Position numbers and translations under genes: made by a program
From: a virus
DNA length: 20,921 nt
Reading direction: 5' to 3' (one strand)
IMG/VR virus record: IMGVR_UViG_3300021963_000786
Span: 1 to 20,921 of that record
Notes under the pieces: model-generated
Seen by the model: only the letters and a program-made list of their open reading frames with translations
Told to the model about the DNA's origin: nothing
The model's database searches: none
In this document: one piece after another, positions 692 through 17,116 of the stretch
Layout of the letters: every line of letters starts with the position of its first letter
Numbering within the stretch: the stretch's first letter is position 1

Positions 692-3600
692 TTAGACTAA
701 AAGATCTCTAAGTAGGGTTTTGCGAGTGATAGGCGTAGTACTGTTGCGGCTTAATGTTGCAATTAAGCTAGCAATATACCCTTCTGTCTTATTTTCAGTA
801 GGGGGAGCGTACGTGTAGATTGTTTGGGCGAGAGTCGGCGGTGTACCTTTCTTCCACTTTTCTTTCAACGGCATGTTATCTATACCACCGGTAGGCATAT
901 TACCTGTTGACCATCTTTCAAGTTTTTGTACAAGCGCCTTGGCTCCTAGCTCTGCTGTGGTGAAGTGTGCAAATCTAGCTTCTAAGCCACTCTCTAGAGT
1001 TACGTTAGGATCTACTTGTTTAAGAGAATCGCTATAGTTCAAATTACCCGGGTTATTATTACGGTAGGCACGAGTTCCGCGGCCGCTGTTTGCTTCTCTA
1101 TTCCAACCTTCTTTAGTACCTATAGCTAGTGCTAGCTCATGCTTAGCAGTTCCTGCAGGGTAGCCGGCTCGTATCAATACCTGCTTAAGGTCCGGATTAC
1201 CTGTTAGTGCTCTAGCATTTCCAGGTCCGGATTCACCAGGTATTTCCTTTAGATCTCTAAGAATATGTCTACGAGTCTTGTACTTGCTGCCGATTACATA
1301 AATTTGAGATCTAACCACAGTAGTCCAGGCCTGTGCGTTGATCTGGTGTTCTAGTCCTGTAACAAGGAAAGCAATATCATTAGTCTCGGTACCTCTGTAG
1401 GTATAGGGGAGTACTAACTTATTAACTCTAAAACTCTCCATAATCCTAAATCCTGAAATTCCTTCTAGGGTGAGTTCTAGCTCAAAAGGAATAATAAACG
1501 AATAGGCAGGTTTATTTTTTTGACCTACCAGGTAAGGTATATAGCTACTGTACTGACTTCTTGCAGCTTTGACTGCAGCATCATCGTACACATAAAGCCC
1601 TTCCTGTTTACCGTAGAGTTGAATAATTACCGATTTGACTTGAACTAACTTTTCAAGCTCAATTAATTTTTCTTCTACTGCTTCGGCTTGCTGCTGCTGA
1701 GCTAGTTTTGTTTTTACCTTAGCGGACTGAGAGTCGTTTTTCTCTCTAATAATTCGGTCTTCTAATCCTTTATTAAAAAATGCTAGACCTGTTCCTTCGA
1801 TACCCGTAGTGTATGGTGAGGCTTGGGCTGAGATGCTTACCATCTGTCCCAGACGCGGGCTTAACTTACTTGTAAGATTGAAGTTACGTACAACACTATT
1901 CTGTCCGATGATACTAATCTGAGAGATCTCTTCTGGAAATTGTGAAATTACGTTTCTATCTACGATTGCAAATTTAGCAGCATCTTCAAAGTATTGTAGC
2001 TGGAAGTTATTTAGTCCGCCAGTTGCAATGTTTATATCTTTAAGAAGCTGTTCAAAGAAAGAGTACATTGTTATTTCTCCATCTGCGTCAATAGAGTTAC
2101 TCAGAATAGAGGTAATATGGTCTATATTAACAAAAATATCCAGTACGTTCTCTTGTGAGGTTTGTTTTTCCTTAGATTTAAGGTAAGTATCCACCGTGTC
2201 GGGTAATAGACATATTGAAGGATCTATTGATACATGATCGTCAATAGTCTTGTACTTGTAAAGTCTTCTATTTGTCTCTAATGTAAAAAACGGCTCATCT
2301 AATGCAGTTGCTGTTAGAATAGTACGGTTAATAATTTCTAAAAAGAGCCCTAATCTAATAAAATAAAAAGCGGTTAGCTCTGTGTCTGCTGCTGTATCTT
2401 CTGTATTGGTGGCAGAATCGTAGATTGCATAGATGTAGTCCTTATATGCTTCGTCGATATCGGAAACTGCTTTTAAATTTTCTGGGAAAAGTTTTGTAAC
2501 AAGTTCGTCTGAAAGTTTTCTTGGAAAGTAGCCTGTGGTTTTGAAGTAGCTTAAGTTATCAAATAGCTCTTTCTTTAACACAATTAGAAGTAGGTAATGT
2601 AACTGGCTTTTGTAAGCATCTATTACGTCTAATGGAGGAACATCTTTTTCAGGCTTTACAGGCTGTGTAGTCGGTGCAACAACCGCAGCGTTAGTTTGAT
2701 CCTGTACTGCTGTAGTCTGTTGAAACTGTCGGGCTACGAATTCAGTCTGAGTTTGAGTGGCAGGAAAAAATGTACTTAAGGGTTTAAGCTCTTGATTTTC
2801 CTCTTTAGGAGTTTCATTAAAAGGTCCAGTTTGGGGCGGTTTTTGAGTAACCTTAGATGTATCGACAGTCCCTGTTTCGGTGTACGCTATGTTTATTTTA
2901 TAGGATTCAATAATCTCTCCTGTTGATACTATATCTGCCCTACAATCATAACCTCCGTCAGGTCTTAAAGACCAAGAAAAGTTTTTTACAACTCCGTACA
3001 TTCCATCGTAGTTGTAGGTGTACTTTTTCTTTTGCTGGGTTATGAGGTTAGTGATAGTGCTTCTCTTCTTGTTACTTCCAAAAAAGTCAATAGCATACGT
3101 ATTTACCGATTCTGTCTTTGCAATATCCCCCTCTTTATAAAGGTATTTAGAATGTCCCCATTCAAGTAGAACTGTGTACCCGGGTCTCATATAAAGTACC
3201 TCTAGTACTTCTAACTGCTCAACACTCCAGCATACAAAATTAACTGTAGCTGTTCTTAAAGAACCAAATGTATTATGGGTTCTTAGGTTCATAGAAGTAA
3301 TACCGGGTAGCGGACGTATTCCATATGAATCTGTGAGTTCATAGCCAGGTAGATCTGACAGTCCTCTAGACTTTATAGGAGCTCCAACCATGTTTGCAGC
3401 ATCTACGTAGGGGTTACCCGTAGTTGTAATCTGAGATAAGTCTTTTTCAGTTAAGTTAAAAAGTACATTCCTTTTTGCTAACTCGTCTCCTACTAGAGTA
3501 GGATCGCTGAGTAGTCGCTGGGCTACTCTTCTACCATCATCATTATTTGCTAGATTGACTCCTGAGCTTAGTTTGATCCAAGGAGTTTTTTCAAAAAAGA

Positions 3601-3715
3601 ATCCGTAACTTGTATCTGATCCAAACAATCTGTAATCATTCCCGATCACGTCCTGACGGAGTAGCAGCTGTTCAGCAGCTGTAAAATCAATAGGTTTACC
3701 TATTTCAAAACTCAT
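692..3715 (-). CDS. Baseplate hub protein fused to a C-terminal peptidoglycan hydrolase
   Basis: A 1007-residue, apparently two-part protein. The N-terminal two thirds carry YGIRPLPGITS near residue 132 and a segment ending RPGYTVLLEWGHS near residue 190, a pattern I associate with hub subunits of non-T4 myophages. A Pro/Gln/Thr-rich low-complexity linker spans about 285-365. From about residue 829 there is a lysozyme-like domain: KEGW (E869 is the candidate general acid), RNNNPGNL at 885-892 and YAPPTENKTEGYI at 969-981, typical of virion-associated muralytic domains. It probably forms the tail tip and locally cuts peptidoglycan during DNA entry, as the T4 gp27/gp5 complex does with separate chains. 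Its ATG overlaps the upstream stop as ATGA, implying translational coupling. Hydrolase confidence is high, the hub role moderate. Confidence 0.85.
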   Translation of the reverse strand: MSFEIGKPIDFTAAEQLLLRQDVIGNDYRLFGSDTSYGFFFEKTPWIKLSSGVNLANNDDGRRVAQRLLSDPTLVGDELAKRNVLFNLTEKDLSQITTTGNPYVDAANMVGAPIKSRGLSDLPGYELTDSYGIRPLPGITSMNLRTHNTFGSLRTATVNFVCWSVEQLEVLEVLYMRPGYTVLLEWGHSKYLYKEGDIAKTESVNTYAIDFFGSNKKRSTITNLITQQKKKYTYNYDGMYGVVKNFSWSLRPDGGYDCRADIVSTGEIIESYKINIAYTETGTVDTSKVTQKPPQTGPFNETPKEENQELKPLSTFFPATQTQTEFVARQFQQTTAVQDQTNAAVVAPTTQPVKPEKDVPPLDVIDAYKSQLHYLLLIVLKKELFDNLSYFKTTGYFPRKLSDELVTKLFPENLKAVSDIDEAYKDYIYAIYDSATNTEDTAADTELTAFYFIRLGLFLEIINRTILTATALDEPFFTLETNRRLYKYKTIDDHVSIDPSICLLPDTVDTYLKSKEKQTSQENVLDIFVNIDHITSILSNSIDADGEITMYSFFEQLLKDINIATGGLNNFQLQYFEDAAKFAIVDRNVISQFPEEISQISIIGQNSVVRNFNLTSKLSPRLGQMVSISAQASPYTTGIEGTGLAFFNKGLEDRIIREKNDSQSAKVKTKLAQQQQAEAVEEKLIELEKLVQVKSVIIQLYGKQEGLYVYDDAAVKAARSQYSSYIPYLVGQKNKPAYSFIIPFELELTLEGISGFRIMESFRVNKLVLPYTYRGTETNDIAFLVTGLEHQINAQAWTTVVRSQIYVIGSKYKTRRHILRDLKEIPGESGPGNARALTGNPDLKQVLIRAGYPAGTAKHELALAIGTKEGWNREANSGRGTRAYRNNNPGNLNYSDSLKQVDPNVTLESGLEARFAHFTTAELGAKALVQKLERWSTGNMPTGGIDNMPLKEKWKKGTPPTLAQTIYTYAPPTENKTEGYIASLIATLSRNSTTPITRKTLLRDLLV

Positions 3716-5160: not shown

Positions 5161-7191
5161 TTACACTCTGTAGTTAGTTACTGATAACCCTTGACCTAGT
5201 TTGTTGCCGTCTAGCATTAGTTTAACTTCTCTTTCGGCTAGCTGTCTTAGGAGTTCGCTTTGTTTTTCTGCACGCTGGGTTTCGGCTTGATTCTTTTTCT
5301 CTTCGGCTGCTTTTTCTCTTTCTTCTTTTCTCTCCATGTAGCCCATAAAGCCTCCGATTACTGCTCCTAATCCTGCTCCGATCGCCATGCCGGCTGGTCC
5401 GCCAAAGCTGCCTATCATCGCACCAGTACCTGCGTATTGAAGTGCATTACCCCCTATTCCTAATCCCATGGCAGCACCGCTACCAGGTTCGTATTGATCT
5501 GCTGCGTACTCTAGACCTGTACCTGCTAGGGCTGCAGCTGCACCTAATCCTAGGCCTCTGGCCATTTTACCTTTCAACGCACCTCCTAGTCCGCCGGCTG
5601 CTCCAGCACCACCTGCTCCTACTTCAGAAGTATAGAGCGGGAAGAAAGGAGCGGCTCCTCTCATACCGGTATACATCTTTGCAGCAGAAGTTAGAGCTCC
5701 TACAGAAGCTATTGATAGGACTGCAACCTTAGCAAATGGAGATTCTGCTAGGCTTTTAACCATCTCAGCCACTGAGTCGATAATTGGTTCCATCTTACTG
5801 AAGATATCAGTGAAGATTGTTTGAAGTTTTCTTACAGAGTCTTGAAATTTGTCAGTAGCATTTTGCTCGGCTTGAATCTTTTCTAGGGCTTCACCCAGAC
5901 TCAAAGTTCTACCTTTCTCGGTATTTTGAAGCTCTCGGGCAGCTTTTAACTGTGCATCAGTTGCTTCTTTACCTTTCTCCCCTAGCTGATTAATTGCCTC
6001 TTGTTTAAGGAGCATTTCAGACATCTGGTCTACGTTTAGACCTAGTGACTGAGCTAGTGATTGACGTGCAAGCACGTTCATATTTTCAAACTCTGCCAGG
6101 CTACCGGCTGCAGTAGCGATTTCTCTCATTAGAGTGTTCTGATCACCGGTCAGGGCAGCAGCTCTTGCTCTTTCTAGATTAAGCTGACGGCCGGTTAGTA
6201 GCTCGGCTTCAAGTTCATTTCCAATAGACTCTTCAAAGTTTAGTAGAGAATTAGCAATTCCGCTTAAGGAACCTAACTCCATACCCAGTCTTCTAGCTTG
6301 AACGACGGCTTCAGTTAACTTTTCAGGAGATCTTCCTAGAGTAACAACCGTACTTGCTGAAAGTTTACCAATCTCTTCATAAACATCTCTAAGATTCATG
6401 TTTATGTTGTTGGCTTTCAGAGTAGGTATTAATGCATTAGCAATACTCTCTCTATAATCTTCAGCAGATTGTCCTAAGCTAACTCCGATTCTAGCAAGTC
6501 CTCCGGCTGCTTCTTTAGATAGTCCGATGTATTGGGTTGCTTTTACAAAGTCAGCAGCAAAATCAGCACTAAACTGTACGTTAGTACCTAGTGCCTGTCC
6601 TAAATCAACTGTAGCTTGAGTTAATCTTTGAGCATCGATTCTGGTATTACCTAATGAATACTGCTCAAACTGCTCTCTTAAATCTCTAGAAGCTGCTACT
6701 CCCTGTCCTAATGTCTTACTTAATGTATAGACATCGTTATTGACAGTGAAAAGACTTTTGCTGAGGTTAGCTAAAGAAACTGTAGCTGTTACTGCCTGTA
6801 AGGCTTTAGAAACTCCTAAAGAATCTTTTAGAGTACCTAGACTTTTTTTTAGTTCGGCTCCTTTTTGAGTCTGTTTTGCTAAACCTTCTGTGTCTACCTT
6901 CAGCTCATCTCTCTTTTTTGTAAGCTGTTCAGAGGAGTAAGACAGAGCTCTGGCTTGCTGTTCTAGCTGACGTGCTCTTCCAATGTTACCTTGCTGGGCA
7001 TACGCAACTGCTTGAGCTTCTAAGTCAGCTGCTTTAGATGCATTGGCGGCAATAGTCTTATTAAAGTTATTTAATAGAGCTTGATTGTCAGCTAACTGCT
7101 GCTGAATTTCAGCCTGCTCCTTTAACCTGTCGTTTTGACGGGAAAAGAGATCAAGAAGTTCCTGAGCTAAGTTATTCTGATTGTCGGCCAT
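5161..7191 (-). CDS. Tail tape-measure protein
   Basis: A 676-residue protein with the expected tape-measure architecture. A Gln/Ala/Lys-rich coiled coil covers about residues 1-125 and a long helical middle about 125-470. A hydrophobic Ala/Gly-rich segment spans about 490-620 and could act in membrane passage of DNA. A charged coiled coil and a short tail, MLDGNKLGQGLSV, end the protein. At roughly 0.15 nm per residue it predicts a tail near 100 nm. It follows the frameshifted chaperone gene, the usual order in tailed phages. The leader CTATTTATATGTATATAG holds a copy of the recurring intergenic motif, 11 bases before the ATG, and no Shine-Dalgarno sequence. Confidence 0.9.
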   Translation of the reverse strand: MADNQNNLAQELLDLFSRQNDRLKEQAEIQQQLADNQALLNNFNKTIAANASKAADLEAQAVAYAQQGNIGRARQLEQQARALSYSSEQLTKKRDELKVDTEGLAKQTQKGAELKKSLGTLKDSLGVSKALQAVTATVSLANLSKSLFTVNNDVYTLSKTLGQGVAASRDLREQFEQYSLGNTRIDAQRLTQATVDLGQALGTNVQFSADFAADFVKATQYIGLSKEAAGGLARIGVSLGQSAEDYRESIANALIPTLKANNINMNLRDVYEEIGKLSASTVVTLGRSPEKLTEAVVQARRLGMELGSLSGIANSLLNFEESIGNELEAELLTGRQLNLERARAAALTGDQNTLMREIATAAGSLAEFENMNVLARQSLAQSLGLNVDQMSEMLLKQEAINQLGEKGKEATDAQLKAARELQNTEKGRTLSLGEALEKIQAEQNATDKFQDSVRKLQTIFTDIFSKMEPIIDSVAEMVKSLAESPFAKVAVLSIASVGALTSAAKMYTGMRGAAPFFPLYTSEVGAGGAGAAGGLGGALKGKMARGLGLGAAAALAGTGLEYAADQYEPGSGAAMGLGIGGNALQYAGTGAMIGSFGGPAGMAIGAGLGAVIGGFMGYMERKEEREKAAEEKKNQAETQRAEKQSELLRQLAEREVKLMLDGNKLGQGLSVTNYRV

Positions 7192-7222: not shown

Positions 7223-7492
7223 TTACTTTCTAGCAACTTTTGTGCTGTAGGTAGGTGTGCTGATAGCAGGACCTATTGGTCTGGTATTCTCTACAGTAGC
7301 TTTTTGCTTATTCTGGGATCTTTCCATAGCTTCTTTTTCGTCGTCGTAGTGCTTTTCGATCATACGGAAAGTAAGCTTTCTCAGCCATATAGGCATGTTG
7401 TAGACTGTTTCCCAGTCGTAACCTCCTTTACCATGAAAGACTATTTCATGGATTTGACTAAACAGGGCTGTTCTATACTCAGGCGTCAGGCC
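7223..7492 (-). CDS. Frameshift extension of the tail-assembly chaperone, 89 aa
   Basis: An open frame starting GLTPEYRTALF and containing NMPIWLRKLTF, ending at TAA 7225-7223. It has no usable start at its 5' end: upstream in frame there is a TAG but no ATG, GTG or TTG, and the first ATG (7396) falls inside the NMPIW motif, 32 residues in. It is +1 relative to the gp26-like gene, which it meets exactly at the T7 run. It is therefore best read as the C-terminal part of a 328-residue (+1) or 329-residue (-2) fusion protein. In lambda (G/GT) and P2 (E/E') such extensions recruit the tape measure or tube during tail assembly; the same role is inferred here. The charged, helical C-terminal half fits a chaperone. 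Confidence 0.8.
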   Translation of the reverse strand, partial: GLTPEYRTALFSQIHEIVFHGKGGYDWETVYNMPIWLRKLTFRMIEKHYDDEKEAMERSQNKQKATVENTRPIGPAISTPTYSTKVARK

Positions 7493-8210
7493 AAAAAAAG
7501 TTAAGCCCGATTGGTAGATCGACGTCCTCCTCTACGCCGTTTACTACTACCTTTGTTGTGTAGTCAATACCTGGTAATAATGAGCTGTAATGCTCTCTAA
7601 AAGCTCTAGCTTCACGGGCCAAAAATGCATTATCTACGAAATCTCTAATGTCTTTCTGCTCTCTAGATCCGTTGATAGATGTGATAATATATTTTAGACG
7701 GGTAGTGACTTGTGTAGAAGACTCTTGGTTAATCTTTTGTAGACCCTTAATCTCTGCATCTATCTTACCTTCATCTCCGTGGGTAAGTAATCTAAAGGTG
7801 AGTACGTTTCCGGTGTCTGGTAATGAGTATGTAAACTCATTAGTACCGGCAGTATACTTGCTTTCATCTAGCTCCCTGGCCTGATAGGTTGTTAGATCTA
7901 CAGGATGTTCTTTTCCTTTATAAAAGAAAGAATATTCTTTTCCGTAGGATAGAATTCTAGCAGCTAGCATCAATGCATCTCTATCTCCAATCAAAAGATC
8001 ATTGTAACTGATAGGAGATACAATCATAGACTGCAAAAGCTTATCAATTGCAATGCCTTGACGTAGGTAGTTCTGGTTGGTTAGGATGTCTTCTTCTTTA
8101 GCGGTCATGTACTTCATTTCGACTTTTCCGCTGGCAAGAGGACTGTCTACCGGGTAGAGTAGACCTTTAGATGGAAGTTCAACGACTTCTGTAGGTAGGT
8201 TAAATGCCAT
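7479..8210 (-). CDS. Tail/baseplate assembly chaperone, T4 gp26-like
   Basis: A 243-residue protein beginning MAFNLPTEVVELPSKG, then GKVEMKYMTAKEEDILTN near residue 28. This is the pattern of the T4_baseplate (gp26-like) family: an extended ELPSKG strand followed by a compact helical domain. It ends IGLNFFWPDA and stops with TGA at 7481-7479, 12 bases past a TTTTTTT run. The product is probably non-virion or minor and assists baseplate-hub or tail-tube assembly. It lies between the tube terminator and the tape measure, the usual position of frameshifted tail-assembly chaperones, and a second frame continues past the slip site. The ATG is preceded by an AT-rich leader with a promoter-like motif and no clear Shine-Dalgarno sequence. 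Confidence 0.8.
   Translation of the reverse strand: MAFNLPTEVVELPSKGLLYPVDSPLASGKVEMKYMTAKEEDILTNQNYLRQGIAIDKLLQSMIVSPISYNDLLIGDRDALMLAARILSYGKEYSFFYKGKEHPVDLTTYQARELDESKYTAGTNEFTYSLPDTGNVLTFRLLTHGDEGKIDAEIKGLQKINQESSTQVTTRLKYIITSINGSREQKDIRDFVDNAFLAREARAFREHYSSLLPGIDYTTKVVVNGVEEDVDLPIGLNFFWPDA
7493..7499 (-). other. Slippery heptamer for programmed +1 or -2 frameshifting
   Basis: In sense orientation the codons are AAC TTT TTT TGG. With UUU in the P site and a UGG codon awaiting, Phe-tRNA can re-pair perfectly after moving +1 or -2. Either move places the ribosome on GGC and the 89-residue extension; -1 leads to a stop after two codons. A purine-rich AGGAGG lies at 7531-7526, 26 bases upstream of the run, farther than known internal SD stimulators usually sit. 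No strong downstream stem was visible. Confidence 0.7.
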
Positions 8211-8815: not shown

Positions 8816-10528
8816 TTACGCTCCAAAAGTTGCTCCTGTAGGCTGAACTACGAAGTCAAGTACGATGAATTCTGCAGTCTTGGTTGGCTGGATGAAGATC
8901 TGACCTACTAACTGGTTTCTATCGATAACGTCAGCAGTGTTGTTGGTGTCGTCCATCACAACTCTGTAAGCGTAAAGTCCTTGGCGCTGTACTACAGTCT
9001 CAAGGTATGGGTTAACAGCTGCTAAGAATCTGTTACGAGTAGCGATTGTGTTCTGCTCGAATACTAGGTTGTTAGCCTGATCTCCGATGAAGTTCTTAAG
9101 GTTGATAAGAAGTCTGCGAACATTTACGCGGTCTAATGCAGATGCCTTAGTCTGTAATGTCTTTTGTCCGTATGCTACTACACCAGAACCTGGGAAGGTA
9201 GCAATTGGGTTAACTTTACCTAAGTAAAGAGTATCTCTGTCGGTCTGAGAAAGCTTTCTTTCTGCCATGATCACTGAAGGAATACCTCCTCTTAGTAGAC
9301 CTGCTGGTGCGAACCATTCAGCACCTACTCTGTCAGTGAAGGCGTAAACACCTCCCATTACTGTTGAAGCAGGAGCCCAAACATTCTTTCCTAGTTCGTT
9401 GTTAGCTACCTTAACCCAAGGCCAGTAAGCGGCTGCGTATGAGCTGTTCATTCCTGAAGCTTCTGCTGTAGCAGTGGCTGTTGAACCTCCGTAGTTAACT
9501 GGGTCGATAACGTAGATTGCATCTCCTCTAGTTTCTACTAGATCGATGAATCCAGTAACTTGTGAAGAGTGTAGATCTTTTGTAAGACCTGGTGTTACAA
9601 GTACATTGAATCTGAACTCGTCTCTGTTTGCAAGAGTTAAGATTGCAGTGTCGTAGGCTGTTGAAGGAGCAATACCCTGTGTGTCGGTAGAGGTTAGTGA
9701 TGTAAAGTTAGCAGCGTATGCAGACTGGAATAATGTTCCTGCACCTCCAGAGAAGGCTCCGTGTAGTGATCCGCTACCGATTACAAAGTTAGCAAACGAT
9801 GCTGAGTATGCTGAATTAGCTACTCCGTTGTTATCAAGGTAGTCAGGCATCTTAGTGTTAACGGCAGATACATAAACGTACTTAGATACATTTGGATATT
9901 CTCCGTTTACAGTCACGGCACCGGCTGAGTTAGTACGGTACTGATCACCGATTACTTTTGCAACGTAGTTAGGTGATTTTGGATCAAGTGATAGGTTCTG
10001 GTAAGATTCAAGGATGATCTTATTTTTCTCATTATCATCTCCTCTTCTGATTGCGAGTGAGAAAGTTCCTTGAGCTGTATTCTTAGAAGTTACTTCCCAT
10101 CTTACGTTGTCAGCAGAGCCGCTTACAAGTGCGTTGTTTGTACCGGCACTTCCGCTGTTATTCATGATCGTACCCTCTGCAATAGTAGATAGAGTGATCC
10201 AGGCTGTAGAACCGCTATTGATTGTAGCAGTAGCTGCTCCAAAGTTCTGATCAGATACTCTGGTTACTAAGAGAGAAGTTCCGCCTTGTTCAAAGTACTT
10301 TTCAGCAGCAAGGGCAGTGTAGTGGGTGTAGTAGTCACTACCTGATTTAAAAGCACCGCCGAATACATTTAAGTACTCGCCGTAAGAACGCACTACAGTT
10401 GGGATGTCTTGTGGACCTTTAGTAGTAGGACCTACAAGAGCTGTAGAGATCTCGGCGGCTGCTGGGGTGATGAAAGACAGGTCATTCTCTCTTGAAAATA
10501 CACCTGGTGATAAAATTCTTTCTGCCAT
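8816..10528 (-). CDS. Contractile tail sheath protein, T4 gp18-like
   Basis: A 570-residue protein (T4 gp18 is 659). The N-terminus ILSPGVFSRENDLS is the usual sheath start. The C-terminal core carries LSQTDRDTLYLGKVNPIATF at about residues 426-445, GVVAYGQKTL, and SALDRVNVRRLLINLKNFI around 460-480. It ends in strands like those that interlock sheath subunits. The middle, about residues 100-330, is Ser/Thr/Ala-rich and probably forms the surface-exposed domain. Sheath subunits surround the tube and contract to drive it through the envelope. A promoter-like motif lies 22 bases upstream, and the leader AACCCTTCCCAACG lacks any Shine-Dalgarno sequence. Confidence 0.95.
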   Translation of the reverse strand: MAERILSPGVFSRENDLSFITPAAAEISTALVGPTTKGPQDIPTVVRSYGEYLNVFGGAFKSGSDYYTHYTALAAEKYFEQGGTSLLVTRVSDQNFGAATATINSGSTAWITLSTIAEGTIMNNSGSAGTNNALVSGSADNVRWEVTSKNTAQGTFSLAIRRGDDNEKNKIILESYQNLSLDPKSPNYVAKVIGDQYRTNSAGAVTVNGEYPNVSKYVYVSAVNTKMPDYLDNNGVANSAYSASFANFVIGSGSLHGAFSGGAGTLFQSAYAANFTSLTSTDTQGIAPSTAYDTAILTLANRDEFRFNVLVTPGLTKDLHSSQVTGFIDLVETRGDAIYVIDPVNYGGSTATATAEASGMNSSYAAAYWPWVKVANNELGKNVWAPASTVMGGVYAFTDRVGAEWFAPAGLLRGGIPSVIMAERKLSQTDRDTLYLGKVNPIATFPGSGVVAYGQKTLQTKASALDRVNVRRLLINLKNFIGDQANNLVFEQNTIATRNRFLAAVNPYLETVVQRQGLYAYRVVMDDTNNTADVIDRNQLVGQIFIQPTKTAEFIVLDFVVQPTGATFGA

Positions 10529-12048: not shown

Positions 12049-12441
12049 TTAACAACCTCTCTGTGCAGTTATTTTTCCTGCTGAGTCTATTTCATAAACA
12101 GTGTTGCCGGATTTGTACCATAGTACTCCTCCGTTAAAAGAAGTAGAGAGAGTATTATCCGTATACAGGCTAACGTTAACACCTAGGGAAGTACTAGAAG
12201 AATATAATGTAATCGGATCATAGGCTTCAGCACAGGCTTGAGACCAGTCACTGTATCCTTGCTGTCCGTCTCCCATATAAAAAGTATATGCTGTAGCAAA
12301 GGTAAATCCGTAAAATTCATTTATACTGTCCGGAGTTGAAAATCCGGCTGCAGCATGCAGGGTTCTAAAGTCATTAGCGCTAGATCCTAGCTCGGTTTTA
12401 ATATCACTCAAAGATATGGGTCCGTTACTTTGTAAGGTCAT
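12049..12441 (-). CDS. Fibre-associated protein with SLSDIK/EFYG N-terminal module, 130 aa
   Basis: The N-terminal part, about residues 1-48, reads GPISLSDIKTELG and later SINEFYGF. This module is seen at the start of many phage fibre or adhesin proteins and also opens the 368-residue protein at 19653-20759. The C-terminal part has SLYTDNTLSTSFNGGVLWY and ends in Cys, a small aromatic/glycine-rich beta domain resembling repeats at the tips of phage fibres. Its start codon overlaps the end of the giant S74 fibre gene by 17 bases, so the two are probably translationally coupled and act together at the fibre tip. The function is inferred from the module and neighbourhood. Confidence 0.8.
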   Translation of the reverse strand: MTLQSNGPISLSDIKTELGSSANDFRTLHAAAGFSTPDSINEFYGFTFATAYTFYMGDGQQGYSDWSQACAEAYDPITLYSSSTSLGVNVSLYTDNTLSTSFNGGVLWYKSGNTVYEIDSAGKITAQRGC

Positions 12442-15400
12442 GAATAAGTGCTTTTAGTTCATCGATTTGCTTTTGCTGTTGATCAATCAAGGCTTGCTGA
12501 TCTTTAATTGCTTCAATCAGTAGGCCGGCCATGTTTCCGTAAGCTACATTATACATTCCGGAAGCATCCTGAGATACTACTTCTGGTACTACTGCCAGTA
12601 CTTCCTGGGCGATAACTCCCATATTAGTACTTCTATCATCAGAATCTGTTCTTTTAAAGGTCACACCTCTTAGCTGTTTTACCTTCTCTAAAGCATTTCC
12701 GATGGTCTGGATGTCGGTTTTAATTCTGGCATCAGAGTAACCTGTTACGTTACCGGCAAAGGTTACGTTACCGGACATATCAAGCTGCATTCTGTTTGCA
12801 GATGCACTCCATCCTCCGATACGCAGTACGTTATCGTCGTCAAGCCCCATATTTACAGCATAATGTCCTGATTTATGGAAGGACATAAATGCCGAGTTAT
12901 TGTTTGTTGAATAAGCTTGAAGTTTTGCAGAGTCTGTTGCTCCTGATTTACCTCCGTTGTTTGTCTGGAAGTATGCAATGCCTGTTACAGTCCCTCCTGA
13001 TAACGGTAGAGCGTAGCTTGAATAGTTACCAGCATGTAATACAGCATTACCGGTAGTTATACCCCCGCTAGTTCCGTTAACATACAGCATACCGCGGATC
13101 TTTGTATTACCACTTCTGTCAATGCTTAGACGGGCATGATGTCTGTCATCCCCGGACCATGCATCACCAACGCCGTAGTGCGGGTTATTATCTCCACTTG
13201 CATTATATCCAATACTGAAGATATAAGGGTTACTGTTTGGTATACCCATATTCCACTGTCTTGCGGAACTTCCTTCTGTTCCTACAAAAGAAAATACAGC
13301 TCCGTGATTTGTATTGTTGGCACCGGTTGCAACAAGAGCTATATGTGGGTAGTAGTCTGCAGATACTACAAGCTGTTTTCTTGCATCGTCTGCCGTATAT
13401 ACACCGTGTGTTGATGCATTTCCTACATTAAGAGATACCCCGCTTGAAACACCGGTAGCATTAAGCTGGCCGGCAACAGTAGTTCCGCTATTAAGTACGA
13501 TAGCATTTCCTACCGGGTTTAGGTACAACGGCTGGCCAGAATGCGATTGAACGTAAGAATAAGATCCGTTATTTCCAATGGAGATTGTAAAATTATTTAC
13601 ATTATTTGGATTGGTTGTGCCTCTTAGGAATCTTCCGTCTGATTCACTTTCTGTGTAGTAACGGTCATCATGAGTATGAGAAGATGCAGCTTTACCGTCT
13701 AGTGCAGTCTGCAGTCCTGTTACATCAGAAATAGCGTGGGTGTGAGAAGATGCTGCATAGGAGCCTCGAGCCTGGAAGTATTCATGTAGCCATCCGTATG
13801 TATTAGTCCAAAGATCTCCGTTGGTATTTAGGATCATTCTTCTGGTGCTATCGGCAGATCCTCCGTAATACCATATGTAAGCATAGGCTCCGCCTCCGTG
13901 ATCGTTAGTATTACCATCAGTTCGGAAAATCATAGTTCGGCTGTTGCCGTAGAGCTGTACCTGATTATCATCGCTAGTTGCTCGGAACCAAGCATCAGCA
14001 GTGTAGTAACTTCCTAAGTTAGTGGCTGTGGTAGCGGTAGTAGCAGAACCTGCTGAGGTTGCATAGTTTACAGACTGTGATCCAATGTTAGCAGATGTAA
14101 TGATATCCACCCATGAGCTCCAGTTGTCGCAACAGTCTCTTAGTGTACGCAATCTTAGACTGGGGCTGGTAGTGCTCAACCAGTCTGCTGATAGTTCGAA
14201 TGCTCTACTACTGAATGCAAATTGAGCTGCTATATCATAAGTAGAAGGTGAATTAGAACCGCCAGAATATGCTCCATAGATAGCCAGTCCATTATCTACT
14301 TTTAATCTTCTATCAGTATCATAACTAATTCCTCCTCCAAGTACTTTAAAATTACTTGTAGATACTCTTGCTCCAAGCAGGCTGTCTACTTCTGATTCGG
14401 TGTAGTAACGGTCATCGTGGTTGTGAGAGGGTAAGGAAGTTAGATAGGATCCTGCTGCTTGTTTACCGTCTAGAGCTGTCTGTAATCCTGTCACATCTGA
14501 GATAGCGTGGGTGTGGGAAGAGGCTGCTTTAGTAGCTAGCTTTGTATCAATTTCAGATTCGGTATAGTACCTATCGTCGTGGGTATGAGATATGGCTGCA
14601 TACCTAGAATCAAACTGAGATTGCTTTTTGGTACGTAGTCCGTCTATACGGGCACTGTTTACTTGGTTGAGTCTAAGCGGTGCTGGAGCAGCAACGTCGT
14701 AAGCGTTAGTACCAGACCAGCTTTCATCGTAGAACAAAGTCGAGGTGCTGTAGGCAATATCCGGAGTACCTTCTTGATAGGTTCCTCTAATAGGCTGGTC
14801 AGAGAAAATATGGTAGATAGCCCCGGTAGTCCCACCGCCTCTAAGCATGAATACATATCCCATAGAGTGGGTCCAGATAAACATATCCGCACACACATCG
14901 GTATAGGACTGGTTAAATACTCTAAGTCTATCGTAGTATTCGGCTCCGCCCCAGCCTCCAAAGTTACCTTCCCAATCTAAGAGAAGTCCACCATGGTGTA
15001 CCCCGGTACCAATAGGGTCCCAAGGGGCCTGTTCACCGTATCCGCGTTTGATAATAATCCTACGAAGTACATCCTGATCCCCAAACATAAAGTGCACTGG
15101 GTAGAAGGTATCCGGATCTCCATTTAGTACGATATCGCAGGAGTACGGAAGGCCTGTAACACCTAGAGTTGTCTTTAGCTGGTTAACCTGAGTTCTTGAA
15201 ATATCTGAAACGCTTATTCTATTTCCTAGTGCGGTACTCAGCCAGCCGTTTGTAGTTGAATAAAAGTCACCTCCATTGCTGAAGTAGAATTTGTCTCCGT
15301 CTCCGTTTCTATGTAACCCTAAATTACCGGAATCGGTGGTTACCCACCAGTAGGCTCCTGTGCTTGTATTGTTCCAAGCCTGAGAGTATCTGTCAGAGTT

Positions 15401-17116
15401 GTATCTAAATTCTACTCTACCGGAAATATTACCTCCTGTTGAAGCAAATTTTGAATCTAAAGATGTCTGTAAGTTGGTTACATCTGAGATAGCGTGGGTA
15501 TGAGAAGAAGCTGCATAAGATCCTGCTGCTTGTTTACCGTCTAAAGCTCTTTGTAGATCTGTTACATCGGAAATAGCATGGGTGTGAGAAGATGCTGCAT
15601 ATGAACCAGCAGCCTGCTTACCGTCTAAAGCTGTTTGCAGACCTGTAACGTCTGAGATGGCGTGGGTGTGAGAAGAAGGAGTAAACGAAGAAGGCTTATT
15701 GTAGATTAAGTCCCAGTGTGTCTCTGAGGTCTGTGTTCCGTCTGTATCTACTTCCTTAGACCATCCTATACCCTGTAAGTGTAGTCTTCCGCTCTGATTG
15801 GTGATGCGTAGTGCTCGCATTCCATCCAATCCAGATACTTTAATGATCTGTTGACCGTCGTGGTTCCCGCTATGACTGGTATTTTCAATGGTATTTTTGG
15901 AAAGGAATCTTCCTCTAAATACAAGAGACCCGTCTGACATTACAGCATGAACATCAAAGTATCCACCGGTATCCCACCTTAACTGTCCAATATAAGCAGT
16001 TGTGTATCCGGAAGGTATGTTATATTGTACATAACCCGGGGCATCGTTCCAGCTATATCCTGCTGTAGAATCATTACCTGGTTTGTAGTCTCCCCAAGAT
16101 GAGTCATTTGATGATTCATTCCAAGTTCCAGATTTTTCATCTTCGGCGGTTATAGCTGTTTGTGCTGCAAAATCGTTTAATACAAATCTAGCATCGGATT
16201 CAGTTTCGGTGTAGTACCGGTCATCGTGAGTGTGCGAAGATGCTGCTTTTCCATCCAGAGCTGTTTGTAGCCCGGTAACATCTGAGATAGCATGAGTATG
16301 AGATGCTGCTGCATAAGTACCTGCTGTAACACTAAAAGTAGTACCTGATAATGTTAAACCGGTACCTGCACTGTAGGTTGTATTTGTGTCAGTATCGGTT
16401 GAAGAGATTGTCAGTGTATTGGTAGTGGTGTCGTAGTTAACTGCGGTTGCTCCTGAACCTCTAACGATCAGAGTATTCCCAGATCCAATTGTTTCTGATC
16501 TTGTAGAATCACTAATAGTCCATCCTCCGTAGTTATCGGCACTAGCTGCAATACCGTCTAGCTTGGTTTTTAAAGCTGTTGTAAAGTTCTTCTCTGTTAA
16601 TCCTCCGTCTCCTACTGAGTAGGTGGTGTTTGTGTCTGTTGAAGAGATAGTAAATGTGCCGTTGCTGTAACTTACCGTGGTTGCTCCCGATCCTGCAAAG
16701 GTAAAGTCTCCGGCTACTAGTGTACCGCCGGACTGTCTTAATCTAGTAACTGTGTTAGTAGGAGTTTGCCAGGTTCCGTCTCCTCTTAGAAACTGCAGAG
16801 CCTGTCCTGAAGTTGCTGCAGGTACGTATCCTGCTATACCGTCAGAGCCTTCGCTTCCTCCTATGGCTGCTCCTGAAGCTCCTTCGTAAGTTTTAGCATT
16901 TAAAATTCCTGAGGAGATAGTAAGAGTATTTCCTACTTTGATTCCTCCTAAGACTGTTGATGTGGCAGTGGGTAGAGAATATCCGGAAACCGATCCGGCA
17001 ATAACGTTACCTTGGGCGTCAGTACCTAGTACATTCTGACTGGTTAGATTCTCTAATTTAAGGTGTGCTAAAGATCCTGAAGATCCGTGCAACACCACTT
17101 TTTTCCATGATGGCAT
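12425..17116 (-). CDS. Giant tail fibre with HxH repeats and C-terminal S74 autoprotease chaperone
   Basis: A 1563-residue fibre. The N-terminus MPSWKKVVLHGSSGS is shared with the 255-residue neighbour and is probably the attachment module. Ten HTH/HNH motifs occur as six HTHAISDVT and four H(T/N)HDDRYYTE units. In T4 gp37, HxH motifs coordinate iron along the trimer axis, and the same is expected here. Residues about 655-810 form a distinct Trp/Gly-rich globular segment. The last 103 residues, from SDARIKTDI, form a peptidase S74 intramolecular chaperone with candidate dyad S1461/K1466; trimer-dependent self-cleavage before S1461 is the family mechanism. It ends in a Gln/Leu coiled coil. It overlaps the 130-residue gene. 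The leader is the longest in the window and holds two small hairpins. Confidence 0.92.
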   Translation of the reverse strand: MPSWKKVVLHGSSGSLAHLKLENLTSQNVLGTDAQGNVIAGSVSGYSLPTATSTVLGGIKVGNTLTISSGILNAKTYEGASGAAIGGSEGSDGIAGYVPAATSGQALQFLRGDGTWQTPTNTVTRLRQSGGTLVAGDFTFAGSGATTVSYSNGTFTISSTDTNTTYSVGDGGLTEKNFTTALKTKLDGIAASADNYGGWTISDSTRSETIGSGNTLIVRGSGATAVNYDTTTNTLTISSTDTDTNTTYSAGTGLTLSGTTFSVTAGTYAAASHTHAISDVTGLQTALDGKAASSHTHDDRYYTETESDARFVLNDFAAQTAITAEDEKSGTWNESSNDSSWGDYKPGNDSTAGYSWNDAPGYVQYNIPSGYTTAYIGQLRWDTGGYFDVHAVMSDGSLVFRGRFLSKNTIENTSHSGNHDGQQIIKVSGLDGMRALRITNQSGRLHLQGIGWSKEVDTDGTQTSETHWDLIYNKPSSFTPSSHTHAISDVTGLQTALDGKQAAGSYAASSHTHAISDVTDLQRALDGKQAAGSYAASSHTHAISDVTNLQTSLDSKFASTGGNISGRVEFRYNSDRYSQAWNNTSTGAYWWVTTDSGNLGLHRNGDGDKFYFSNGGDFYSTTNGWLSTALGNRISVSDISRTQVNQLKTTLGVTGLPYSCDIVLNGDPDTFYPVHFMFGDQDVLRRIIIKRGYGEQAPWDPIGTGVHHGGLLLDWEGNFGGWGGAEYYDRLRVFNQSYTDVCADMFIWTHSMGYVFMLRGGGTTGAIYHIFSDQPIRGTYQEGTPDIAYSTSTLFYDESWSGTNAYDVAAPAPLRLNQVNSARIDGLRTKKQSQFDSRYAAISHTHDDRYYTESEIDTKLATKAASSHTHAISDVTGLQTALDGKQAAGSYLTSLPSHNHDDRYYTESEVDSLLGARVSTSNFKVLGGGISYDTDRRLKVDNGLAIYGAYSGGSNSPSTYDIAAQFAFSSRAFELSADWLSTTSPSLRLRTLRDCCDNWSSWVDIITSANIGSQSVNYATSAGSATTATTATNLGSYYTADAWFRATSDDNQVQLYGNSRTMIFRTDGNTNDHGGGAYAYIWYYGGSADSTRRMILNTNGDLWTNTYGWLHEYFQARGSYAASSHTHAISDVTGLQTALDGKAASSHTHDDRYYTESESDGRFLRGTTNPNNVNNFTISIGNNGSYSYVQSHSGQPLYLNPVGNAIVLNSGTTVAGQLNATGVSSGVSLNVGNASTHGVYTADDARKQLVVSADYYPHIALVATGANNTNHGAVFSFVGTEGSSARQWNMGIPNSNPYIFSIGYNASGDNNPHYGVGDAWSGDDRHHARLSIDRSGNTKIRGMLYVNGTSGGITTGNAVLHAGNYSSYALPLSGGTVTGIAYFQTNNGGKSGATDSAKLQAYSTNNNSAFMSFHKSGHYAVNMGLDDDNVLRIGGWSASANRMQLDMSGNVTFAGNVTGYSDARIKTDIQTIGNALEKVKQLRGVTFKRTDSDDRSTNMGVIAQEVLAVVPEVVSQDASGMYNVAYGNMAGLLIEAIKDQQALIDQQQKQIDELKALIHDLTK
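13625..13767 (-). repeat. Fibre repeat cluster nearest the C-terminus (DRYYTE plus ISDVT units)
   Basis: Encodes one HTHDDRYYTE unit and one HTHAISDVT unit with the TALDGK linker. The DNA is close to the clusters at 14395-14610, 15470-15685 and 16190-16320. Confidence 0.8.
14395..14610 (-). repeat. Fibre repeat cluster, three HxH units
   Basis: Encodes HTHDDRYYTE, HTHAISDVT and HNHDDRYYTE units separated by GLQTALDGKQAAGSY. The HNH variant is the only departure from HTH among the ten motifs. Confidence 0.8.
15470..15685 (-). repeat. Fibre repeat cluster, three tandem ISDVT units
   Basis: Three consecutive HTHAISDVT units spaced by about 30 residues of LDGKQAAGSYAASS. This is the most regular tandem in the fibre and a likely site for length change by recombination. 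Confidence 0.8.
16190..16320 (-). repeat. Fibre repeat cluster nearest the N-terminus
   Basis: One HTHAISDVT unit followed by one HTHDDRYYTE unit that ends in SDARF, at about residues 265-308 of the fibre. Confidence 0.8.

Follow-up and report, generated by a model that had tools for sequence, protein, structure and literature searches.

A candidate programmed +1 frameshift joining a gp26-like tail assembly chaperone to its extension in a T4-related phage

The locus and its reading frames

The window, that is, the whole stretch of DNA analysed here, is a virus contig of 20,921 nt (IMG/VR record IMGVR_UViG_3300021963_000786, positions 1 to 20,921). The features that concern us are given below from upstream to downstream.

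8816–10528, minus strand: tail sheath gene, matching phrog_23 (E 1.3e-71), PF04984 and PF17482
8300–8788, minus strand: tail tube gene, upstream of the gp26-like ORF, matching the tail tube family phrog_4542 (E 6.5e-21)
7479–8210, minus strand: gp26-like G-domain ORF of 243 aa, the putative short form of the tail assembly chaperone (TAC), recognized from the ORF list, Pfam PF12322, phrog_150 and an AF2 model
7525–7533, minus strand: Shine–Dalgarno (SD)-like element AGAGGAGGA, recognized from codon-level conservation beyond the protein sequence and from anti-SD energy
7493–7499, minus strand: run of seven T with the candidate slip site TTT TTT TGG; the +1 slip is proposed at the second TTT (7496–7494), with TGG (7493–7491) in the A site
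7223–7492, minus strand: +1-frame extension (T domain), GLTPEYR...VARK, consisting of 89 codons (7492–7226) and a stop (7225–7223)
5161–7191, minus strand: tape-measure-like gene, directly downstream, recognized by BLASTP to the annotated tape measure protein of Flavobacterium phage immuto

The gp26-like ORF and the extension lie between the tail tube gene and the tape-measure-like gene, the latter matching the immuto tape measure with an E-value of 5e-24 (29% over 265 columns). This order of tube, G/GT and tape measure is that of other TAC loci, and the chaperone position and the lambda- and P2-like logic that a reading of the sequence alone (hereafter the sequence-only reading) had proposed for the locus hold. 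Elsewhere on the minus strand, positions 692–3715, in the baseplate hub region, encode a 1007-aa protein, the C-terminal part of which (approximately residues 875–985) matches endolysin and tail transglycosylase PHROGs, and positions 12425–17116 encode a probable tail fibre protein of 1563 aa containing numerous AASSHTHAISDVTGLQTALDGK-type repeats.

The G domain matches Pfam PF12322 (T4_baseplate) with an E-value of 7.6e-7 and 29.5 bits, compared with a cut-off of 24.5, and phrog_150 with an E-value of 6.2e-11; PF12322 is also recognized in 47 of 65 relatives (E up to 0.001). The G domain and the extension were modelled separately. The AF2 model of the G domain has a pLDDT of 92.6, and its matches in BFVD are baseplate hub proteins of T4-like phages, including those of Bacillus phage SP-15 (TM 0.84) and Campylobacter phage CP220. 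Against the PDB this model gave no significant match, the TAC of HK97 (gp13, 2OB9_B) being found at an E-value of 3.0 and a probability of 0.35 over 66 columns. The model of the extension consists of three helices, with a pLDDT of 78.5 overall and 85–94 over residues 1–60; it showed no significant fold match in BFVD, and sequence searches of the PDB with gp51 and with the extension returned nothing useful.

The 243-aa ORF ends in ATC GGG CTT AAC TTT TTT TGG CCT GAC GCC TGA (GLNFFWPDA*), and the T run at 7499–7493 is exactly seven T long. When one base is skipped after TTT TTT, the sequence reads GGC CTG ACG CCT GAG TAT and so forth, and the product continues as FF-GLTPEYRTALFSQIHEIVFHGKGGYDWETVYNMPIWLRKLTF... 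(GLTPEYRTALF...VARK, 89 aa) to a stop 31 nt ahead of the tape-measure-like gene. The −1 frame reads TTG GCC TGA and closes after two codons. The +1 frame is open for 39 nt 5′ of the GGC codon, these 39 nt contain no ATG, GTG or TTG, and the earliest in-frame start of the extension is an ATG at residue 33, within the conserved core. The sequence-only reading had described a gp26-like frame ending in NFFWPDA and a start-less frame that meet at TTTTTTT, and had excluded a −1 shift in the window on account of the early stop; we find its coordinates and statements to be correct.

Conservation of the junction and direction of the shift

A search of IMG/VR with the gp26-like ORF found at least 596 relatives, of which the best 80 were kept (WIN group); further homologue searches based on Microcystis phage Mel-JY01 (MIC), LR756508 (LR) and Listeria phage LIS04 (LIS) yielded 80, 20 and 2 loci, respectively. 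The junction sequence TTT[T/C]TTT(GG/TC)CCTGA, together with an extension in +1, is common to the best 80 of the at least 596 IMG/VR relatives. More widely, the alignment of relatives that the sequence-only reading had suggested as a check shows that the T run is kept, in identical or closely similar form, and with it both frames, across approximately 180 relatives, down to 26% identity. By automatic call, the extension is in +1 in 78 of 80 WIN, 74 of 78 MIC, 16 of 18 LR and both LIS loci; four more loci (L059, L152, L183 and L190) are also +1 on reading by eye, the last three of these being three of the four MIC exceptions. Among 125 distinct loci, a stop occurs within 60 codons in frame 0 in every case and in the +1 frame in none. 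The X_XXY_YYZ arrangement of −1 shifts does not apply here, because the −1 frame closes after the slip in the window and in 122 of the 125 loci. The distant gp26-like gene of a 595-kb phage (LR756511, L087) differs from its +1 relatives: its sequence reads GGT TTT TTC, and its extension appears to lie in −1.

The extension is under purifying selection. Between the window and its nearest relative (L002), its dN is 0.099 and its dS 1.50 (dN/dS 0.07), and the median pN/pS of 53 pairs is 0.21 in the +1 frame compared with 1.09 and 1.24 in two control frames. The homopolymer context in a metagenome contig might suggest that a missing or extra base, arising from sequencing error or gene decay, has split a single ORF. 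However, the split recurs in approximately 180 contigs, selection acts on both frames, and the same arrangement is present in the isolate genomes of Flavobacterium phage immuto, Microcystis phage Mel-JY01, Listeria phage LIS04 and GXN1. Since these phages were sequenced independently, the arrangement is no error of assembly or sequencing; the isolates already refute such an origin, and we regard its probability as negligible. The isolates also dispose of a run of six or eight T, which the sequence-only reading had named as the finding that would place everything in a single frame.

Public annotations of these phages omit the extension or call it wrongly. In immuto it is annotated merely as a 36-aa hypothetical ORF (L082:6839-6949), and in LIS04 (L086) it is absent from the annotation. 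Many relatives have a +1-frame TTG at −11, which the annotation of the Microcystis phage takes as the start; it was rejected as a start codon, since the window and many other loci lack it.

The slip pair is TTT TTT, TTT CTT, TTC TTT (14 LR loci) or CTT TTT (three loci), and the codon that follows it is TGG or, rarely, TTC or TAC. The second slip codon, read with the base after it, is TTT T or CTT T in every resolved WIN and MIC locus and in 17 of 18 LR loci, so that a P-site YUU_U slip of the prfB type is present at the sequence level; TTC never occupies this position, and the protein does not explain its absence. A P-site +1 slip on the second codon, from YUU to UUU, would fit all of the slip-pair variants. 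Certain loci have a stop in the +1 frame 9 nt 5′ of the first extension codon, and the shift must therefore occur at the run. CCT after TGG is fully conserved, which is accounted for by its contribution to both reading frames, as Pro in one and Leu in the other. Downstream of the junction, RNA folding over 70 nt was not distinctive as a stimulator, the mean fold z being −1.2 (WIN), −0.8 (MIC) and −0.7 (CYA).

A −2 ribosomal frameshift at the U run, of the kind reported for phage Mu, would enter the same downstream frame as +1 and would produce the fusion NFFFGLT, and the sequence TTTTTTT permits it. PRFect (PMC10885494) mentions −2 sites resembling +1 sites. On the other hand, in the 14 LR loci with TTC TTT TGG a −2 shift would place tRNA-Phe on UCU, and in the loci with TTT CTT TGG it would give poorer pairing than +1, an argument that assumes one mechanism throughout the clade; we consider a −2 shift improbable. 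The sequence-only reading had left the choice between +1 and −2: the downstream frame that it deduced stands, and the shift is refined to +1, since −2 sets the tRNA on UCU in the TTC TTT TGG relatives. Transcriptional slippage on the seven-T run, which could in principle occur, would by loss of one U from some mRNAs and normal translation of these give a fusion protein identical to that of the +1 shift. Seven Ts are, however, short for polymerase slippage, and the run is interrupted in homologues with a +1 extension, as TTTCTTT in nine WIN loci and TTCTTTT in 14 LR loci; an origin of the fusion in the polymerase is thus very unlikely.

The extension could also be a separate gene whose translation either begins at a non-canonical start of its own or is coupled to termination at the gp26 stop; public annotations place short separate ORFs at internal starts. 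Two contigs, L203 and L209, show what such a gene looks like: the extension has an ATG a few bases past the gp26 stop (around position 2215 in each) and approximately 20 extra N-terminal residues, and the slip is TTC TTG TAT or TTC CTT TGG CCA. The sequence-only reading had taken a homologue with its own start codon as evidence against frameshifting. Such homologues do exist, in these two contigs, but both fall inside the frameshifting clade of the G-domain tree, so that their own start appears to be a derived replacement of the frameshift and does not refute it. In the other direction, no ATG, GTG or TTG occurs in frame through residue 25 in 28 of 68 WIN, 13 of 62 MIC and 4 of 10 LR distinct loci, the earliest ATG of the window falls inside the core domain, and conservation of the slip site extends to the nucleotides, its loss or alteration coinciding exactly with the presence of an own start. 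We therefore give little credence to separate initiation of the extension in the window.

The SD-like element AGAGGAGGA lies 26–34 nt (about 25) upstream of the slip site (7525–7533 in the window, minus strand) and is kept in most relatives. The Glu codons at −11, −10 and −9 from the slip are GAG in 117 of 121 cases, compared with 17% GAG elsewhere in the gene, and the element matches the anti-SD strongly, with a mean of −9.6 kcal/mol compared with −3.4 kcal/mol for synonymous shuffles. In the Microcystis group the element is weaker; most LR loci have it, and L210 and L211, where the slip is intact, lack it. To our knowledge, a spacing of 26–34 nt is farther upstream than in known frameshift sites and is not used by them. 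The −1 cyanophages have a similar element 9–17 nt upstream of the slip, which is the usual distance for −1 stimulators. The element of the window clade may stimulate frameshifting.

Taken together, the comparisons argue for a programmed +1 ribosomal frameshift at YUU_UGG that would yield the short and long TAC of a T4-related contractile-tailed phage, a reading to which we assign a probability of about 0.88. The efficiency of the slippage would be such that most ribosomes end at TGA, giving the 243-aa gp26-like short form, and that a fraction of them slip +1 on the Phe codons, where the P-site UUU, probably the second, would re-pair with the overlapping UUU while UGG is waiting in the A site. 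The resulting long form would be approximately 328 aa long, made up of 239 residues through NFF and the 89-aa extension. If the lambda G/GT analogy applies, the part common to both forms would coat the tape-measure protein and the extension would recruit tail tube subunits.

Relation to gp26 and gp51 of T4

Both gp26 and gp51 of T4 match PF12322 (E 8.8e-64 and 3.9e-52, respectively) and phrog_150. The match covers profile positions 14–235 in gp26 and 13–280 in gp51, and gp51 thus consists of a gp26-like domain followed by a C-terminal tail. The number of phrog_150 genes is two in T4 and in RB43, where gp51 and gp26 are in tandem and overlap, and one in each frameshift genome or contig examined. 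On sequence grounds, gp26 and gp51 are paralogues of the window gene, gp26 corresponding to G and gp51 to GT, and the T4 equivalents of the two proposed forms would be the products of these two paralogous genes. The sequence-only reading had suggested that the window might hold a frameshift-linked counterpart of the separate gp26 and gp51. That link is borne out, but gp51 is not a mere extension; it is a full gp26 paralogue with a C-terminal tail.

In the cyanophages P-SSM2 (L112) and Syn9 (L113), the annotated gp51 continues gp26 in the −1 frame, and the cyanophage-like junction is U_UUU_UUC, a classic −1 heptamer, in 80 of 80 loci. What is named 'gp51' in cyanophage annotations is part of the extension that a −1 frameshift adds to gp26, its ORF having been called from an internal start. 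The window-type extension matches that of the cyanophages with an hhalign probability of 88% and a score of 32.2, the highest score among 100 column shuffles being 18.8; in a profile comparison the cyanophage extension matches the C-terminus of T4 gp51 with a probability of 97% (E 2.6e-10). The best E-value of the extension against phrog_634 is 0.0013. Compared directly, the window extension and T4 gp51 match weakly (17% profile probability), and a single-sequence comparison of the two gave no match; when the entire fusion and the entire gp51 were compared by local profile alignment, the match was also weak (E 0.098), and the extension was aligned with the gp51 C-terminus. By way of the cyanophage intermediates and of its position, the extension appears to resemble the C-terminal tail of gp51.

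In the G-domain tree, which has 76 rows, a midpoint root only and several long branches, T4-type gp26 and gp51 form one group (98/91) adjacent to the cyanophages (100/100), and opposite these stand the +1 phages (100/100). It is conceivable, at somewhat less than an even chance, that YUU_UGG, with a sense codon in the A site and a conserved internal SD sequence about 25 nt upstream, is a distinct kind of bacterial +1 site, and that the shift in this TAC gene is −1 in cyanophages and +1 in the window clade at the same Phe–Phe codons, having given way to gene duplication in T4 and to an own start codon in L203 and L209. As read here, the T4 family itself arrives at the short/long pair by four routes in a single gene family, namely a +1 shift, a −1 shift, a duplicated gene and a separate start. 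This natural series allows the reasons for frameshifting, and the way in which its direction can change, to be studied. The poorly understood hub chaperones gp26 and gp51 of T4 also gain a testable role.

Comparison with known systems

Nearly all long-tailed phages have frameshifted tail chaperones; T4 was long listed as the exception to G–T frameshifting, as in a 2016 review (PMC5009743). The kind of system described here is already known, and it includes the TAC genes of T4-like phages, which according to citations in PMC10885494 and PMC12846349 were published as a short gene and a fused long gene (Vladimirov et al. 2022, Virology 566:9–15). What may be new is the +1 variant and its breadth: in the literature searched, mostly outside subscription papers, we found no +1 YUU_UGG site in a large T4-related clade, no such SD-like element and no change of direction within one family.

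The lambda G/GT and P2 E/E+E' systems use a −1 shift, whereas the window would use +1, and they are likened to it here by position and logic; similarity in sequence would not be expected. In prfB (RF2), at CUU_UGA, a P-site YUU slips to UUU, as is proposed for the window. However, prfB has a stop codon in the A site and an SD sequence approximately 3 nt upstream, a combination that does not occur in the window, where the A-site codon is the sense codon UGG and the SD-like element lies 26–34 nt upstream. Contractile-tailed viruses of the HF1 group of haloviruses, and HSTV-2, have a TAC gene with a probable +1 frameshift at TTT-CGC (PMC7230728, PMC5009743), the site having been proposed for the HF1 group in PMC7230728. 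These viruses differ from the window phage in their archaeal host and in their rare codon and TTT_C context, and the likeness drawn here is one of mechanism.

T4 shares with the window the PF12322/phrog_150 family, short and long forms with a common N-terminal domain, and a helical C-terminal tail on the long form. In place of one gene with a frameshift it has a pair of paralogues, which lie on opposite strands; the corresponding pair of RB43 is in tandem. The cyanophages (Kyanoviridae) are alike in having one G-domain gene with an overlapping extension frame, a Phe–Phe slip and a related extension. They differ in that their shift is −1 at U_UUU_UUC with the SD-like element 9–17 nt upstream, whereas the window clade is predicted to shift +1 with the element at 26–34 nt.
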